Source: Nonomuraea deserti (lineage in GTDB: Bacteria; Actinomycetota; Actinomycetes; Streptosporangiales; Streptosporangiaceae). From it: a stretch of 64,000 nt of DNA. The DNA is taken from positions 1-64,000 of the forward strand of contig NZ_SMKO01000003.1 of the NCBI RefSeq assembly GCF_004348685.1, given 5' to 3'. This document shows, one piece after another, positions 7,029 to 62,624 of this stretch. The stretch's first letter is position 1; every line of letters begins with the position of its first letter. Position numbers and translations under genes: made by a program. Under the pieces are notes generated by a model that worked only from the letters and a program-made list of their open reading frames with translations, had not been told where the DNA came from and did not search any database.

Positions 7029-7058
7029 CACCGCGGCCATCAGGGGTAGCGGGCATGG

Positions 7059-8720
7059 ATGCGACTGACGTACACCTCCGATCTGTGGTGGAAGAACGCC
7101 GTCGTCTACTGCCTGGACGTCGAGACGTTCAGGGACGGCAACGGCGACGGCGTGGGCGACTTCCGCGGGCTGACGCAGCGGATCGACTATCTCGCCGGTC
7201 TGGGCGTGACCTGCCTCTGGCTCATGCCGTTCTTCCCCACCCCCAACAAGGACGACGGGTACGACATCACCGACTTCTACCGCGTTGACCCGCGACTGGG
7301 GACGCTGGGCGACTTCGTGGAGTTCATGCGCACCGCCCACGACCGGGGTCTCCGGGTGATCGCGGACCTGGTCGTCAACCACACCTCTGACCAGCACCCC
7401 TGGTTCAAGGAGTCGCGGTCGGGCAAGGACTCGCCCATGCGCGACTGGTACGTCTGGTCCGACACCCCCGAGCCGGACAACCCCGAGCAGATCATCTTCC
7501 CCGACAAGGAGGACAGCGTCTGGGAGTACGACGAGGGGTCGGGACAGTACTACCTGCACACCTTCTACCGGCACCAGCCGGACCTCAACATCGCGAACCT
7601 CGAGGTGCGGGACGAGATCATGCGCGTGCTCGGCTTCTGGATGGAGCTGGGGCTGGCCGGGTTCAGGGTGGACGCGGTGCCGTACCTCATCGAGAACGTC
7701 GACCCGGAGCTGGCGAACCCGCACGACTTCCTGGCGGACCTGCGGGCGTTCATGACCCGCCGCCAGGGCGGGTCGATCCTGCTCGGCGAGGTCAACCTCC
7801 CCTACAAGGACCTGATGACCTATTTCGGCGAGGGGCTCGGCGACCAGGTCACCGTCTGCTTCGACTTCGTCGGCATGCAGAAGGCCTGGCTGTCGATGGC
7901 CCGCGGCGACGCCCGCCCGCTCGCCGCCGCCCTGCGCGAGCGCCCGAAGCCGCCGAAGGACTGCCAGTGGGCCATGTTCCTGCGCAACCACGACGAGCTC
8001 ACCCTCGACAAGCTCAGCGACGAGGAGCGCCAGGAGGTCTTCGCGGCGTTCGGCCCGCAGAAGGACATGCAGATCTTCGGCCGCGGGCTGCGGCGGCGGC
8101 TGCCGGGCATGCTCGGCGGCGACCTGCGGCGGGTCAAGCTGGCCTACAGCCTGCTGTTCTCCCTGCCGGGCACGCCGGTGATCTTCTACGGCGAGGAGAT
8201 CGGCATGGGGGAGAACCTCGATCTGGAAGGCCGCATGGCGGTCCGCACGCCGATGCAGTGGGCGCCGGACGGGGGCTTCGGCTCCGCCGAGCCGGAGCGC
8301 GCGATGCCGGACGGCCCCTTCGCCCCGGAACGGGTGAACGTGGCCGCGCAGAGGAAGGACCCCGACTCGCTGCTGCGCTGGTTCCAGCTCCTCATCGAGC
8401 GTTACCGGGAGTGCCCCGAGCTGGCGTGGGGCGACTGCACCGTGCTCGACACCGGCGAGAACGCGGTCTTCGCGCACCGGTGCGAGGCCGACGGGGCGAC
8501 GATGGTGATCGCGCACAACCTCGGAGACACGGCGTGCGACGTGGAGCTGACGCTGCCGGGGCTGGAGGGCTCCCGGCTCACCGACCTGCTGGTGGACGAC
8601 ACGCTGGAGGTCTCGGGGGAGGGCGCGGTGCGGGTGGCGCTCGGCCCGCACGGCTGCCGCTGGCTGCGGGCCTCCGCTCCTGGAGTGTCGCCGGAGAACG
8701 CCTCGGCCAAGGCCATGTGA
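7059..8720 (+). CDS. GH13 alpha-amylase family enzyme, trehalose synthase-like
   Basis: 553 residues. The GH13 conserved regions are in order: DLVVNHTSDQH (region I), GFRVDAVP with the nucleophile Asp near 205, LLGEVN with the acid/base Glu near 242, and FLRNHDEL with the transition-state Asp near 309. WWKNAVVYCLDVETFRDGNGDG and the DEL variant resemble trehalose synthase and related maltose-acting enzymes. A C-terminal beta-sandwich follows. There is no signal peptide, so it acts on intracellular alpha-glucans or trehalose. The protein is somewhat shorter than typical TreS and lacks the maltokinase fusion, so the exact activity is open. Confidence 0.82.
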   Translation: MRLTYTSDLWWKNAVVYCLDVETFRDGNGDGVGDFRGLTQRIDYLAGLGVTCLWLMPFFPTPNKDDGYDITDFYRVDPRLGTLGDFVEFMRTAHDRGLRVIADLVVNHTSDQHPWFKESRSGKDSPMRDWYVWSDTPEPDNPEQIIFPDKEDSVWEYDEGSGQYYLHTFYRHQPDLNIANLEVRDEIMRVLGFWMELGLAGFRVDAVPYLIENVDPELANPHDFLADLRAFMTRRQGGSILLGEVNLPYKDLMTYFGEGLGDQVTVCFDFVGMQKAWLSMARGDARPLAAALRERPKPPKDCQWAMFLRNHDELTLDKLSDEERQEVFAAFGPQKDMQIFGRGLRRRLPGMLGGDLRRVKLAYSLLFSLPGTPVIFYGEEIGMGENLDLEGRMAVRTPMQWAPDGGFGSAEPERAMPDGPFAPERVNVAAQRKDPDSLLRWFQLLIERYRECPELAWGDCTVLDTGENAVFAHRCEADGATMVIAHNLGDTACDVELTLPGLEGSRLTDLLVDDTLEVSGEGAVRVALGPHGCRWLRASAPGVSPENASAKAM

Positions 8721-14035: not shown

Positions 14036-14113
14036 ACCTCGCGGTGCAAGTTGCCTAAACCATCGCGCATCCGCCGCCAAACCGGAAGCGTGACGTTGCC
14101 GTAGGCTGGCGAG

Positions 14114-14998: not shown

Positions 14999-15030
14999 CA
15001 GCGCTCCGGCAGCGACACACGCGACACGGG

Positions 15031-15096
15031 AGTGATCCGGCAGCGAACCGGTAGTGATCCGGCAGCGATCTGGCAGTGGTCCGGCAGTGATGTGGC
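15031..15096 (+). promoter_or_regulatory. Six 11-bp direct repeats, candidate SARP binding array
   Basis: Six consecutive 11-bp units follow the consensus AGTGATCCGGC, starting at 15031, 15042, 15053, 15064, 15075 and 15086. Alternate units (22 bp apart) are the most alike. SARP (AfsR/DnrI/RedD) regulators bind direct repeats with 11- or 22-bp periodicity just upstream of the -10. The array ends 25 bp before the ATG of the FAD monooxygenase, and a SARP-type gene sits next to that gene. The regulatory role is inferred; a plain tandem repeat is the alternative. Confidence 0.5.
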
Positions 15097-15121
15097 AGGG
15101 CGTCCCGGCATCGTCGGCGGC

Positions 15122-16501
15122 ATGACCCACGTACTGATCGTCGGCTCCGGGCCGACCGGACTCACCCTGGCCATCGACCTCGCCCGCCGCGGCGTCGAGC
15201 TCCGCATCGTGGAGCGGTCGCAGGAGCCTCCCGCGGGGGTACGCGGCAAGGGCCTCCAGCCGCGCACCCTGGAGGTCTTCGACGACCTCGGCGTGATCGA
15301 CGAGATCCTGGCCACCGGTGCCGAATACCCGGACCTGCGCGCCTACCGGGGCGACCAGGTGATCTGGGAGGGGCGCATGGACGAGATCCGCGCGCCGTCC
15401 GCGGGAGTGCCGTACCCCAACCTGATCATGCAGCCGCAGTGGCGGACGGAGCGCATCCTGCGCGACCGGCTGGCCGAGCTGGGCCACCGGGTCGAGTTCG
15501 GCACCGAGGTGACGGACCTCATGCAGGACGCGGACGGCGTGACCGCCACGCTCGGCACCGGGGAGCGCGTGCGCTGCGCCTACCTGGTCGGGGCGGACGG
15601 CGGCCGCAGCACCGTGCGCAGGCGGCTCGGCGTCGGCTTCGCCGGGGAGACCTTCGACAGCGAGCGCGCGCTGCTCGCCGACATCAGGACCCGCGACCTG
15701 GACCGCGACCACTGGCACGTGTGGGGGTCGATGGCGGACCAGACCATGTACTTCACGATCTGCCCGCTGCCGGGCACCGACGTCTTCCAGCTCGTGGCGC
15801 CGCAGCCGGCCGGTGACGACCTGCCGGCGCTGGTCGCCGCGCACGCGCCGCACGTCCGCATCGACGAGATCGTGTGGCGGTCGGAGTACCGCGTCAACGT
15901 GCGCATGGCCGAGCGGTTCCGGGCGGGCCGGGTGTTCCTCGCCGGCGACGCCGCCCACGTGCACTCGCCCGCGGGCGGGCAGGGGCTCAACACCGGCGTG
16001 CAGGACGCCTACAACCTGGGCTGGAAGCTGGCCGCCGGCTCCGAGGCGCTGCTGGACACGTACGAGGACGAGCGGATGGCCGTGGCGGAGCACGTGCTGG
16101 GCCTCAGCACCCGCCTGTACCGGGAGGGCGACGCCCGGCGCGGCGACCACACCAACCAGCTCGACCTGGCCTATCCGGGCAGCCCGCTGTCCGCGGGCCC
16201 GCGCGGCGGCGAGCGGCTCGGCACGCTGTTCGAGGAGCAGCGCGGCACCGGCTTCCTCCTGCTGGCCGGCACGGTGGCCGGCACGGAAGCCGGCACGGAA
16301 GCCGGCACGGTGGCCGGCACGGTGGCGGGAGCCGTGGGCGGGAACCATCCGGTCAGGGTGCATCCGCCGCTCGACGGGCAGCAGGGGGTCATCCTGGTGC
16401 GGCCCGACGGTTACATCGGCTATCACGGCGACGAGAGCGGCCTCAGCGCGTACCTTTCTGGGTTCGGCATCGACGCGCCCCTCCTCAGCGCCTCCCGGTA
16501 G
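15122..16501 (+). CDS. FAD-dependent aromatic hydroxylase (PheA/TfdB type)
   Basis: 459 residues. It has an N-terminal Rossmann motif GSGPTG, the NADPH/FAD motif YLVGADGGRSTVRR near residue 160 and GRVFLAGDAAHVHSP near 270, the full set for class A flavoprotein monooxygenases. The start is ATG 15122; there is no evident ribosome-binding site and the message may be leaderless. Residues about 382-401 are a run of AGTV/AGTE repeats from five 12-bp units in the linker before the C-terminal thioredoxin-like part. The last 79 bp overlap the 3' end of the opposing SARP gene. It likely hydroxylates an aromatic or polyketide-like substrate. Confidence 0.85.
   Translation: MTHVLIVGSGPTGLTLAIDLARRGVELRIVERSQEPPAGVRGKGLQPRTLEVFDDLGVIDEILATGAEYPDLRAYRGDQVIWEGRMDEIRAPSAGVPYPNLIMQPQWRTERILRDRLAELGHRVEFGTEVTDLMQDADGVTATLGTGERVRCAYLVGADGGRSTVRRRLGVGFAGETFDSERALLADIRTRDLDRDHWHVWGSMADQTMYFTICPLPGTDVFQLVAPQPAGDDLPALVAAHAPHVRIDEIVWRSEYRVNVRMAERFRAGRVFLAGDAAHVHSPAGGQGLNTGVQDAYNLGWKLAAGSEALLDTYEDERMAVAEHVLGLSTRLYREGDARRGDHTNQLDLAYPGSPLSAGPRGGERLGTLFEEQRGTGFLLLAGTVAGTEAGTEAGTVAGTVAGAVGGNHPVRVHPPLDGQQGVILVRPDGYIGYHGDESGLSAYLSGFGIDAPLLSASR
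16265..16324 (+). repeat. Five in-frame 12-bp repeats in the FAD monooxygenase
   Basis: Units GCCGGCACGGTG or GCCGGCACGGAA at 16265, 16277, 16289, 16301 and 16313, encoding repeated AGTV or AGTE. The unit length is a multiple of three, so changes in copy number keep the frame. Confidence 0.9.
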
Positions 16502-19269
16502 GCGTCCGCGCCCAGGGCCGCCGTACACCGCCGCGCCAGGTCGTTGACGTAGGGGTCGGCGGACTCGTCGATCCCGCGCAGCGCCCGCGCGGCGCCCAGC
16601 AGTTCGGCCGCCGGCAGCGGGTCGACGTGCCCGGCCACGCCTTCGAGCACGGTCGCTCGTACGGTCCGGTCGGAGCAGCCGGCCATGAGCTCCAGCGCCG
16701 CCCGCAGCGGCCCGCCCGGCGCGGGGCTCACCTTGGCCAGCTCCACCCGCATGAGCGCCCTCAACTGCGCGGGCATCTCGAGGTCGAGGTCCAGGGCCGG
16801 CGCCAGCAGCCGCGCGGCCTCGCCCGGGTCGCCGCCGCGCCTGGCCAGCTCGGCCCTGGCGTGCATGACCCGGGCCACGATCGTCTGGTCGTCGGAGCGC
16901 AGCGCCGCCTCCCAGGCCTGCTCCAGCGCGGCGGTCGCCCCCGCGCGGTCGCCCGCCCGGCACTTGAGCTGGCCGAGCCGCAGCAGGAACGTCATGGGAC
17001 CCATCGGGCTGTCGAGCCCGGACAGCTCGGCGGCCGGCCTTTCGGGCTCCTCGGCGAGCGCGACGGCGGCGGCGAAGTCACCGCGGTTCTCGGCGACCAG
17101 CGACAACCAGTAGAGCGCCGCCCACTGCCCCCACCGGTCGCCCGTACGCCGGAACCCGGCCAGCGCCGGCTCCAGCAGATCCTCGGCCCCCGCCACCGGC
17201 CCGTACTCGAACCGTACGATTCCGGCGAGCAGCAGCGCCGCCGACCTGGTCCAGAGGTCGGGATGCGCGTGCAGCCGCGCGAGGTGCCGTTCGGCGAGAT
17301 CCACCACGTCGGGAGGCGCCTCCACGACATTCCCGAACATCCAGGAGAGCAGCGCGGCCGGATGGTCGGACCCGAGCACCACGCCGGGCGGCTCGGCTCC
17401 GGCCAGCATCCGGCAGAGCCCGTGCGCCAGCTCCCGTCCCTCCGGCGGCACGGCGCCGACCCTGCGCAGCACCGCCGCGGCCTGCTCGCGCATCTCGCGC
17501 CGCCTGCCGCGCACGTGCCAGGGCCAGAACAGGGGCAGGACCAGCCGGAGCGGGTCGTCGGAGTGCCGCAGCGCCGCGTCGAGGTTGCCCTGCTCGGCGT
17601 CCAGGACGGCCAGCCACTCCAGCTGCTCGCCCGTGCGCAGGCGCGGATCCGCGGCCTCGGCCAGCTCGGTGTAGTAGCGGGCGTGGGCCAGGCGGTGCCC
17701 GGGGAGGTCGGCCGCGGCGTACTGCCTGATGGTAGCCAGCATCGTGTAGCGGTCGCCGGAGACCGTGATGAGCGACTTGTCCACCAGCGAGGAGAGCAGG
17801 TCCAGGTCGCCGCCGCAGACGCGGGAGATCGCGTCGTACGTGGCGCCGCCGGAGAAGACCGTCAGCCCGCGCAGCAGGTCGCGCTCGCGTTCGGACAGCA
17901 GGTCCCAGCTCCAGTCGATGACCGCGCGCAGCGTGCGGTGCCGCGGCTCCGAGGTGCGCCCGCCGCGCAGGGACAGCCGGTCGCCGAGCTGCTCGACCAG
18001 CACGGACATGGGCATCGCCCGCAGGCGCGCGGCAGCCAGCTCGATGGCCAGCGGGATGCCGTCGAGCTCGCGGCAGATCCGGGCCGCGTCCGCCGCCGGC
18101 ACGGCCAGGTCTGGTCGGGCGGCAGCCGCCCGGTCCGTGAACAGCTCGACGGCGGGCCCTTCCGGCAGCGGCAGTACGGGATGCAGGACCTCGCCGGGAA
18201 TGTCCAGCGGCTCCCTGCTGGTGGCGAGGATGCGCAGCCCCGGCGCCTCGGACAGCAGCCACCGCGCCACCCTGGCGGCCTCCTCGATGACGTGCTCGCA
18301 GTTGTCCAGCACGATGAGCGGCGCGGTGCCGCGCAGCGTGGCCACGAGGTCGGTCGTCCTGAGCACGCCCTCCACCGCCGCGCGCACTCCCGATGCGGCG
18401 GCCAGCTCGACCAGCCATACCCCGTCGGGCACGTGCGGGCGGGTCGCCGCCTCCACCGCCAGCCGCGTCTTCCCGGCCCCGCCCGGCCCGGTGAGCGTGA
18501 CCAGCCTCGCCGTGCCGAGCAGCTCTTCCAGCCGGGCGAGGTCCGCCGACCGCCCGACGAAGCTGGTGAACCGGGCGGGCAGGTTGCTCCTGGGCCCCGG
18601 CTCGGCGTCGCGCAGCGCCGCCAGATGCGCCTCCCGCAGCTCCGGGCCGGGGTCGACGCCCAGCTCCGCCGCCAGCTCGGCCCTGATCCGCTCGAAGATC
18701 TTCAGCGCCTCGCCGCGCCGCCCGTCGGCGACCAGCGCGCGCATGAGCAGCGCGTGGAACGGCTCCCGCAACGGGTGCGCGGCGACCAGCTCCTCCAGCT
18801 CCGCCACCAGCCCGCCCGCGCCGCGTTCGAGGTCGGCGGTGATCCTGGCGGCCAGGGCGGTGAGCCGCAACTCGCGCAGCCGGGCCGCGGGGGCCGCGGC
18901 GAACGGAAGCCCGCCCGCGCCCGCCAGCGGCGTGCCCCGCCACAACGCCAGCGCCGCGCCGTGGTCGCCGCCGCGCACCAGGCGCTCGAACGCCCACGCG
19001 TCGACCTCGGCGGCCGGCACGTCGAGCAGGTAGCCGGCCGGATGCGACGAGATCATCCCGGGCGCCTCCCTGCGCGCCCTGGACACCAGCGACTGCAGCG
19101 CGGCCATCGGATGCGCGGGCGGCTCGTCCGGCCACAGGTCGTCGATCAGCCGATCGGCGGTCACCACCCGCCCGGGGTCGAGCGCCAGGCGAACCAGCAG
19201 CGCCCGCACCCGGGCTCCGCCGATCTCGGCCCCCGCCACCCGGAGCGGCCCCAGAATCCCGATCCGCAT
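16423..19269 (-). CDS. SARP/AfsR-type transcriptional regulator with NB-ARC and helical repeats
   Basis: 948 residues. Residues 1-90 are the OmpR-like winged HTH of SARPs (MRIGILGPLRVAGAEIGG, then ADRLIDDLWPDEPP). Residues 95-220 are the bacterial transcriptional activation domain. A STAND/NB-ARC ATPase follows, with P-loop GPGGAGKT near 260, LIVLDNCEHV as Walker B and LDGIPLAIELAAARL as the GLPLA-like motif. The C-terminal third consists of TPR-like helices. Such proteins activate secondary-metabolite or neighbouring genes from direct repeats at promoters. It overlaps the FAD monooxygenase gene tail to tail, and the 11-bp repeat array upstream of that gene is the obvious candidate target. 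Confidence 0.92.
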   Translation of the reverse strand: MRIGILGPLRVAGAEIGGARVRALLVRLALDPGRVVTADRLIDDLWPDEPPAHPMAALQSLVSRARREAPGMISSHPAGYLLDVPAAEVDAWAFERLVRGGDHGAALALWRGTPLAGAGGLPFAAAPAARLRELRLTALAARITADLERGAGGLVAELEELVAAHPLREPFHALLMRALVADGRRGEALKIFERIRAELAAELGVDPGPELREAHLAALRDAEPGPRSNLPARFTSFVGRSADLARLEELLGTARLVTLTGPGGAGKTRLAVEAATRPHVPDGVWLVELAAASGVRAAVEGVLRTTDLVATLRGTAPLIVLDNCEHVIEEAARVARWLLSEAPGLRILATSREPLDIPGEVLHPVLPLPEGPAVELFTDRAAAARPDLAVPAADAARICRELDGIPLAIELAAARLRAMPMSVLVEQLGDRLSLRGGRTSEPRHRTLRAVIDWSWDLLSERERDLLRGLTVFSGGATYDAISRVCGGDLDLLSSLVDKSLITVSGDRYTMLATIRQYAAADLPGHRLAHARYYTELAEAADPRLRTGEQLEWLAVLDAEQGNLDAALRHSDDPLRLVLPLFWPWHVRGRRREMREQAAAVLRRVGAVPPEGRELAHGLCRMLAGAEPPGVVLGSDHPAALLSWMFGNVVEAPPDVVDLAERHLARLHAHPDLWTRSAALLLAGIVRFEYGPVAGAEDLLEPALAGFRRTGDRWGQWAALYWLSLVAENRGDFAAAVALAEEPERPAAELSGLDSPMGPMTFLLRLGQLKCRAGDRAGATAALEQAWEAALRSDDQTIVARVMHARAELARRGGDPGEAARLLAPALDLDLEMPAQLRALMRVELAKVSPAPGGPLRAALELMAGCSDRTVRATVLEGVAGHVDPLPAAELLGAARALRGIDESADPYVNDLARRCTAALGADAYREALRRGASMPNPERYALRPLSSP

Positions 19270-23299: not shown

Positions 23300-23360
23300 G
23301 GGGCGGACTATAGCCCCCGTATCCGTACAGAGACGCGAAGGGCTCCCGCCCACCGTTCGC

Positions 23361-23480
23361 CGCCGTGCCCCCGGCTGCGCCGCCGTGCCCCCGGCTGCGC
23401 CGCCGTGCCCCCGGCTGCGCCGCCGTGCCCCCGGCTGCGCCGCCGTGCCCCCGGCTGCGCCGCCGTGCCCCCGGCTGCGC
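23361..23480. repeat. Six perfect tandem copies of a 20-bp unit
   Basis: The unit CGCCGTGCCCCCGGCTGCGC is repeated without change from 23361 to 23480, followed by one degraded copy. It lies upstream of the KAS III gene, in the 286-bp gap after the small hypothetical gene. Each unit contains a small inverted repeat, GCCG then CGGC around TGCCCC. There are no spacers, so it is not CRISPR. The rest of the gap (23300-23360 and 23501-23585) shows nothing recognisable. Confidence 0.95.
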
Positions 23481-23585
23481 CGCCATGCCCGCTGCGCTGC
23501 CCGGGTCCGGCCCCTTGGCGGGGCAGCGGGCATCGCGGGCCGGTGTCGCCTTCGACCGCCGGCCTCGGGCGATGAACCTGCCGGG

Positions 23586-62479: not shown

Positions 62480-62506
62480 CCCGAGCCCGAGCCCGCGCCT
62501 CGGAGG

Positions 62507-62576
62507 CGGCGATCCCGAGACGGCGATCCCGAGACGGCGATCCCGAGACGGCGATCCCGAGACGGCGATCCCGAGA
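62507..62576. repeat. Five perfect tandem copies of a 14-bp unit
   Basis: CGGCGATCCCGAGA at 62507, 62521, 62535, 62549 and 62563, followed by CGGC. It lies between the transposase remnant and the PCD/VOC gene. No spacers, so not CRISPR. Confidence 0.95.
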
Positions 62577-62624
62577 CGGCGGGCCGGTCTTCCTCATCCG
62601 CGGGCGGTACGCCAGCATGAACCC

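Follow-up and report, generated by a model that had tools for sequence, protein, structure and literature searches.

A phased direct-repeat array upstream of a FAD monooxygenase gene in Nonomuraea deserti as the probable operator of a convergent AfsR/SARP-type regulator

Introduction

The genome of Nonomuraea deserti raises the question of whether a short tandem repeat in front of a FAD monooxygenase gene (FMO) is the operator of a SARP-type regulator, whose gene converges on that monooxygenase gene. SARPs are known chiefly as activators of antibiotic gene clusters (PMC10972967). Their operators consist of direct repeats spaced at 11 or 22 bp, the 3' one lying 8 bp from the -10 element (PMC10936776). 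We examined the array in the window, i.e., the whole analyzed stretch of 64,000 nucleotides (contig NZ_SMKO01000003.1), and compared it with the corresponding regions of related genomes.

Results and Discussion

The monooxygenase gene and its convergent regulator

The predicted target, the FMO gene (15122..16501, plus strand), encodes a member of PF01494 (E 7.3e-78) and of NCBIfam subfamily NF004832 (511.2 bits, cut-off 476), the only NCBIfam model tested whose cut-off it passed. Rifampin monooxygenase (5KOW and 5VQB; E 1.3e-58 and 1.7e-54, respectively) provided its best solved relatives, while the score against the rifampin monooxygenase equivalog NF033145 (249.8 bits) was below the cut-off of 800. 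The predicted activator is encoded by a gene on the minus strand (16423..19269) for a large AfsR/SARP-type regulator of 948 aa, with an N-terminal winged helix (Trans_reg_C, PF00486; 28.1 bits, cut-off 26.2) followed by a BTAD domain (PF03704; 108.3 bits, cut-off 22.1). Its SARP domain matched the AfsR structure 8HVR (E 1.6e-30), as well as the EmbR structure. For the ATPase (NOD) and TPR regions expected after the SARP domain of a large SARP, only weak matches below cut-off were obtained (AAA_16, 25.9 bits against 32.6; TPR_12, 22.4 bits against 30.1), and the length of 948 aa fits such a protein. The protein scored 142.8 bits against the AfsR equivalog NF053617 (cut-off 1430), and no guanylate cyclase match was found in it up to E 0.001, which sets it apart from the PimR-type SARP-LAL regulators. 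The two genes overlap tail to tail by 79 bp (16423..16501), in agreement with the earlier note, and the PF01494, BTAD, and Trans_reg_C matches bear out its naming of both.

Genes for an APH-type phosphotransferase, a fatty acid desaturase, and a histidine kinase are located upstream of the FMO gene. Judged only from the family matches of seven neighboring genes, the locus may lie outside a biosynthetic cluster. Within the desaturase promoter (window 14041-14095), a stretch around CTTCCGGTTTGGCGGCGGATGCGC recurs in seven of 13 related loci scanned (L161, L162, L163, L166, L167, L170, and L171), as a separate conserved control element. The window also contains a 12-bp tandem repeat of 5.3 copies inside the FMO gene (16263-16326), translated in frame as a series of GTVA/GTEA toward the C-terminal part of the protein, a 20-bp repeat of 6.7 copies with 99% match (23358-23490), where open frames on both strands overlap, and a 14-bp repeat of 5.6 copies with 98% match (62503-62581) within a minus-strand open frame of 498 aa.

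The repeat array and its register

The array consists of six 11-bp units (15031..15096, plus strand) in the order AGTGATCCGGC AGCGAACCGGT AGTGATCCGGC AGCGATCTGGC AGTGGTCCGGC AGTGATGTGGC, with 25 bases between the last unit and the FMO ATG (15122); both the sequence and Tandem Repeats Finder reproduced this number and position of units, as first reported in the earlier note. Pairwise, the units are identical at a mean of 8.6 of 11 positions and the three 22-bp pairs at 16-19 of 22. Since period 22 (score 94) exceeded period 11 (score 81) in Tandem Repeats Finder, the array resembles three copies of a double site. With up to two mismatches, AGTGATCCGGCAG matched the window eight times (shuffle mean 2.53, maximum 7), and six of these matches were inside or just upstream of the array. 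A 22-mer pattern with up to three mismatches was found five times in the array and at two single places elsewhere in the own genome (10.7 Mb, 470 contigs), in which no second copy of the array was found. The pattern GRCAG-N6-GRCAG-N6-GRCAG occurred in that genome in the array only (two overlapping matches), but its reversed control gave eight matches, so this loose pattern is no proof by itself.

The element conserved among relatives is a GRCAG core within YGRCAGNG, which takes the form YGGYAGNG-N3 in the window. The 11-mer consensus AGTGATCCGGC proposed earlier is therefore a rotation of the conserved register: the repeat stands, with its register shifted. Counted back from the A of the ATG, the six half-sites of the conserved register begin at -84, -73, -62, -51, -40, and -29, all 11 bp apart on the plus strand. 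Half-site 1 (CGGCAGCG, 15038..15045, -84 to -77) recurs as half-site 3 (CGGCAGCG, 15060..15067, -62 to -55), and half-site 2 between them (CGGTAGTG, 15049..15056, -73 to -66) has one departure from GRCAG. Half-site 4 (TGGCAGTG, 15071..15078, -51 to -44) is the counterpart of the third site of relatives, and half-sites 5 (CGGCAGTG, 15082..15089, -40 to -33) and 6 (TGGCAGGG, 15093..15100, -29 to -22) are the upstream and downstream members of the core pair. After 8 bp from the end of half-site 6 (-22), a -10-like hexamer, CATCGT, follows on the same strand (15109..15114, -13 to -8), and it is CANNGT-like in most relatives. Its role as a -10 element is suggested by its conservation under an assumed transcription start, and the repeats overlap the -35 region only if transcription begins at or near the ATG. 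A worn unit copy is also present upstream of the array (15000..15012, plus strand), off the 11-bp phase.

Conservation upstream of FMO1 orthologues in Nonomuraea

Orthologues of the FMO (FMO1, at least 65% identity) were identified in 18 of 54 Nonomuraea genomes, including the own genome, and a SARP gene lies tail to tail with FMO1 in 16 of the 18 (own included). In the remaining two, G018 has the FMO and the operator on a contig that stops at the FMO, with no SARP found in an assembly that is 63% complete, and in G020 neither a SARP beside the FMO, nor a SARP orthologue, nor the operator was found. Phased half-sites occupy the same place before FMO1 in 17 of the 18 orthologues, the exception being G020. 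In all 16 tail-to-tail loci, the two proximal sites are spaced at exactly 11 bp and stand 22-23 nt from the ATG, with a -10-like hexamer after them; across the 17 promoters, the distance from the last site to the ATG is 23 nt in 16 and 22 nt in L174. Three strict RRCAG sites are present in 14 of the 17 promoters, the third site being worn in L159, L167, and L172. A 10-bp step separates the second and third sites in 13 of the 17 promoters, while the window, L121, L122, and L174 have 11 bp there, and the number of sites varies from mostly three in relatives to six in the window. The information content in the 17 promoters was 1.35 bits per column in the proximal two sites and 1.37 in the -10 hexamer, compared with 0.52 in the linkers and 0.19 from -110 to -62.

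These comparisons indicate that six copies are unusual and that conservation concerns the two proximal sites, their spacing at the 11-bp phase, and the -10 element. A variable or missing array in relatives that keep both genes had been named beforehand as evidence against an operator; copy number does vary, and the third site is often at 10 bp, but the core phase is kept in 16 of 16 loci. On the whole, the comparison of relatives supports the earlier proposal of a SARP operator that would control the FMO.

A second, distant monooxygenase gene with the same operator

The pattern RRCAG-N5-GRCAG-N6-GRCAG-N23-ATG gave 14 matches in the 54 Nonomuraea genomes and none when read backwards. Nine of the matches precede FMO1 orthologues and five precede FMO2, a second monooxygenase approximately 55% identical to FMO1; one of these five is a relict in G064. 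FMO2 (at least 78% identity to the G014 copy) was found in 14 of the 54 genomes, with the match in G002 covering part of the protein only, and all 14 FMO2 loci have two RRCAG sites and a -10-like hexamer in the arrangement defined below for the class counts. FMO2 is not adjacent to the SARP gene: the two share a contig in five genomes, at approximately 35 kb (G074) or 70-73 kb (G014, G023, G028, and G070), and are on different contigs in nine. The SARP of G070 is truncated (L171 9910-10353), with only its first 148 residues matching in an open frame of 210 aa.

The SARP was detected in 27 of the 54 genomes at E 1e-60, and a retest that covered eight of the 27 genomes without such a match revealed a contig-end fragment in one of them, G061, which raises the number to 28. 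All 28 SARP-positive genomes hold FMO1 (16) or FMO2 (14), two of them both, while only two of the other 26 hold FMO1 (G018 and G020); for this co-occurrence, the Fisher p of 2e-13 ignores kinship and counts the G064 relict as absent. At the 3' end of the SARP gene in 11 genomes without an adjoining FMO, no RRCAG pair at 10, 11, or 22 bp was found, the sole exception being one 10-bp pair at the edge of L161. In G060 (L160, approximately 7050-7330), an operator remnant joined to an apparent FMO tail was recognized by eye beside the SARP gene, as a trace of FMO deletion, and FMO2 is present elsewhere in that genome. In G064 (L231 and L206), an intact-looking operator precedes the FMO2 relict (approximately 63 residues match), and no SARP orthologue was found there.

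Thus, FMO2 is predicted from its promoter to be a second target of the same SARP, in trans. The monooxygenase had been proposed as a locally controlled target, but "local" is too narrow, since the distant FMO2 has the same operator.

The SARP clade and its own-genome targets

In the phylogenetic tree, 48 SARPs (those linked to an FMO, those of FMO2-only genomes, and those of genus g51) were split from 14 other SARPs with branch support of 96/89, and the branch was present in 98% of the bootstrap trees; AfsR and L198, among the 14, are long branches. The sequence ALQSLVSR in the recognition-helix stretch is shared by 26 of 32 linked SARPs, but it is no clade signature because one SARP outside the linked set (L222) also has it. 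By residue numbers counted by hand, R92 of AfsR aligns with an arginine and T88 with a serine in the window SARP.

Autoregulation of the SARP gene through the same motif was rejected, as none of the 11 genomes checked showed an RRCAG pair 10, 11, 21, or 22 bp apart in the 200 nt that precede the SARP start. When two sites and a -10 hexamer were sought in the own genome without mismatch, the array and one match inside long open stretches (C88:30962) were obtained. With up to one mismatch, the search for further own-genome targets gave 27 matches against 17 in reversed controls, little above chance.

Occurrence of the operator and SARP beyond Nonomuraea

Across 341 genomes of the family, TGACAGNGATCYGGCAG gave 28 matches, 26 of which were before an FMO, and reversed controls gave none. 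All 22 matches within Nonomuraea and four of six outside it precede an FMO, the other two being L223 and L224. In G157, G160, G241, and G329, the best SARP match in the genome (64-70% identity, compared with 48-55% for the next) adjoins the operator-bearing FMO tail to tail. Searching the 341 genomes with the SARP only, we found ten further genomes outside Nonomuraea, with an FMO tail to tail in five (G334, G158, G082, G083, and G088) and approximately 3 kb off in G237. The sites in these six genomes are 11 or approximately 22 bp apart, the first site being worn in G082. The other four (G142, G143, G144, and G148) belong, like G145, to genus g51; these five genomes have a SARP of the clade, and no FMO was found in the stretch read. 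The loci concerned are L304, L305, L306, L308, and L295. In Microbispora L054 and L060, the operator is present, and no SARP was found in the stretch examined.

Six Lentzea loci, among the 76 loci L042-L117, have a SARP gene tail to tail with the FMO, and their promoters contain three sites at 11-bp spacing that stand 22-23 nt from the ATG. Lentzea is a member of the Pseudonocardiaceae and belongs to another order than the Streptosporangiaceae. In several of the Lentzea FMO promoters (L100, L104, L105, L111, and L117), an upstream GGCCCTGTCA mirrors the middle-site TGACAGGGCC, forming an inverted repeat around the operator.

Start codons were sought 21-25 nt past the last site only, and no in-frame start codon was found at this distance in L281, L303, L309, and L312; a leaderless FMO mRNA is therefore not general. 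The operator region and -10 of the L303 promoter (G334) are present twice in tandem with an RBS-like GAGGAGG downstream, and this promoter is probably not leaderless because of that GAGGAGG.

Counts of the paired sites and -10 hexamer

Promoters were also scored for a pair of RRCAG sites spaced at 11 or 22 bp, the second of which has a -10-like hexamer 9-11 nt after it. This arrangement was found in all 16 SARP-linked FMOs of Nonomuraea and in 13 of 16 from other genera, i.e., in 29 of 32, compared with two of the 64 FMOs that have no SARP close by (Fisher p 7e-19, which ignores kinship). Shuffled sequences, taken from up to 16 loci per class, showed it at a rate of 0 to 0.001. The two SARP-less FMOs with this arrangement are Microbispora L054 and L060. 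The three SARP-linked loci lacking it are L279, where the operator is farther from the aligned start, L310, where the first site is GTCAG, and L307, where the pair is present with the hexamer AACAGT.

The class without SARP consisted of L126 and 63 of the 76 loci L042-L117, and the 13 loci left out of it were eight with a SARP tail to tail, together with L048, L052, L055, L056, and L058. Among the eight, L044 and L049 re-entered the analysis as G083 and G241 and the six Lentzea loci as themselves, and L048 re-entered as L309 (G237); L052, L055, L056, and L058 are Nonomuraea FMO2 loci. A further locus, L124, located at a contig end, was left out of the SARP-linked class of Nonomuraea.

Comparison with known SARP operators and a proposed mode of action

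The window SARP shares the winged helix and BTAD of AfsR, the large SARP that acts at the afs box in the afsS promoter of Streptomyces coelicolor (PMC10936776). The AfsR dimer covers two 11-bp repeats at -40 to -19 of the afsS promoter and touches the first 8 bp of each, upstream of a -10 element CACTGT (PMC10936776), which corresponds to CATCGT in the window. Should transcription begin at the ATG, the two proximal 8-mers of the window, on -40..-33 and -29..-22, would be placed like those of the AfsR box (PMC10936776). The systems differ in the repeat, which is CGTT(T/C)ATCGNN for AfsR (PMC10972967) and YGRCAGNG here, in the target, which is afsS there (PMC10936776) and an FMO here, and in the presence of more than two repeats in the window.

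The nearest known heptamer is that of PimR in the pimM promoter of Streptomyces natalensis, CGGCAAG, with a natural copy CGGCAGG close to YGRCAGN (PMC5930380). The PimR operator has three repeats with 4-bp spacers, in addition to a secondary operator with 10-bp units, and binding requires at least two heptamers (PMC5930380). The PimR operator lies off the -35 box, in an antibiotic cluster, and its target is a regulator gene; the C-terminal half of PimR resembles guanylate cyclases and LAL regulators (PMC5930380), whereas the window SARP is without a cyclase match. Addition of a fourth heptamer to the triplet raised expression to only 140%, while two triplets, i.e., six heptamers, gave 470%, the best construct described (PMC5930380). 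By analogy with the latter value, a stronger promoter may well result from the six sites of the window, although their spacing and position differ from those of PimR. The operators of SanG and PolR use the PimR heptamer and overlap the -35 hexamer of the target promoter; they have two heptamers only and are part of peptidyl nucleoside antibiotic clusters (PMC5930380 and PMC10972967).

Taken together, we consider it highly probable, from comparative sequence evidence, that the array is the operator by which the convergent SARP activates the FMO gene. We infer a mode of action in which one SARP protomer would bind each YGRCAGNG half-site. The proximal half-sites (-40..-33 and -29..-22) would carry a side-by-side SARP dimer over the -35 region, which would help RNA polymerase to use a poor -10 element (CATCGT), and the FMO mRNA would start leaderless or nearly so. 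The upstream half-sites might take further protomers and tune affinity or output, and in the genomes with FMO2, the same SARP would work on FMO2 in trans.

Alternative interpretations

The array might be a true operator that belongs to another regulator, such as a second SARP or a response regulator paired with the histidine kinase upstream, with the convergent SARP as a bystander. Nonomuraea genomes do offer many candidates, since each of eight genomes gave between 28 and 65 hits at E 1e-20 when searched with the full-length SARP, and the operator was found without this SARP in L054, L060, G018, and G064. Nevertheless, the operator accompanies SARPs of this clade in different genera, and its neighbor in G157, G160, G241, and G329 is the closest SARP of the genome by the margin given above (64-70% versus 48-55%). 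We regard control by another regulator as improbable on this basis. The response regulator of the nearby histidine kinase, in particular, was rejected, as L127 and L128 have the operator with no kinase match in a 19-kb stretch.

Two further interpretations deny that an operator exists. An ordinary promoter, in which the conserved TGACAG serves as a -35 hexamer and no activator is required, draws on the presence of CTGACA, near TTGACA, at -41 to -36 in many relatives. The distance from CTGACA to the -10 element, however, is 22 bp, more than an ordinary promoter allows; relatives retain two or three copies in phase, and the window itself has CCGGCA at that position. We rejected this interpretation on the distance and consider it very unlikely. 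Even less credible is a neutral tandem repeat, produced by slippage and located in the promoter by chance, although tandem repeats are many in the window (100 rows), one of 12 bp lies inside the FMO gene itself, and the number of six copies is not found in relatives. Conservation extends to the core half-sites and their phase but not to the flanks, and these half-sites have one position upstream of both FMO1 and FMO2 and in different genera; the contrast between core and flanks and the class counts led us to reject neutrality. Slippage may still have caused the growth from three to six sites within an operator of the convergent SARP, which we retain as the preferred explanation.

Biological implications

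The mechanism of SARPs and this type of operator are already known, and no description of the SARP-FMO pair was found among the titles and abstract openings listed from open-licence papers. Comparison of genomes that retain the repeat with those that have lost it turned a pattern noticed by eye into a probable operator. Many related soil bacteria combine the SARP, the FMO, and the repeat pattern, so the link between regulator and monooxygenase is directly testable. We tentatively suggest, with slightly less than even confidence, that a single SARP clade and its monooxygenases constitute an independent circuit of regulator and enzyme outside antibiotic clusters, in which an AfsR-like SARP would sense a compound and switch on one dedicated type of monooxygenase, the linked FMO1 or the distant FMO2; this unit would have been kept from Streptosporangiaceae to Lentzea, with its response tuned by added half-sites, six of them here. 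The predicted targets FMO1 and FMO2 would make up an unusually clear and testable two-target regulon and provide a route to the compound to which the SARP and the monooxygenase respond. Operators with two to six sites at 10 or 11 bp constitute a natural series for how the number and spacing of half-sites set SARP output. This clade would represent SARPs with mainly one enzyme family as the predicted target and an operator that is legible by eye and kept across two actinobacterial families.
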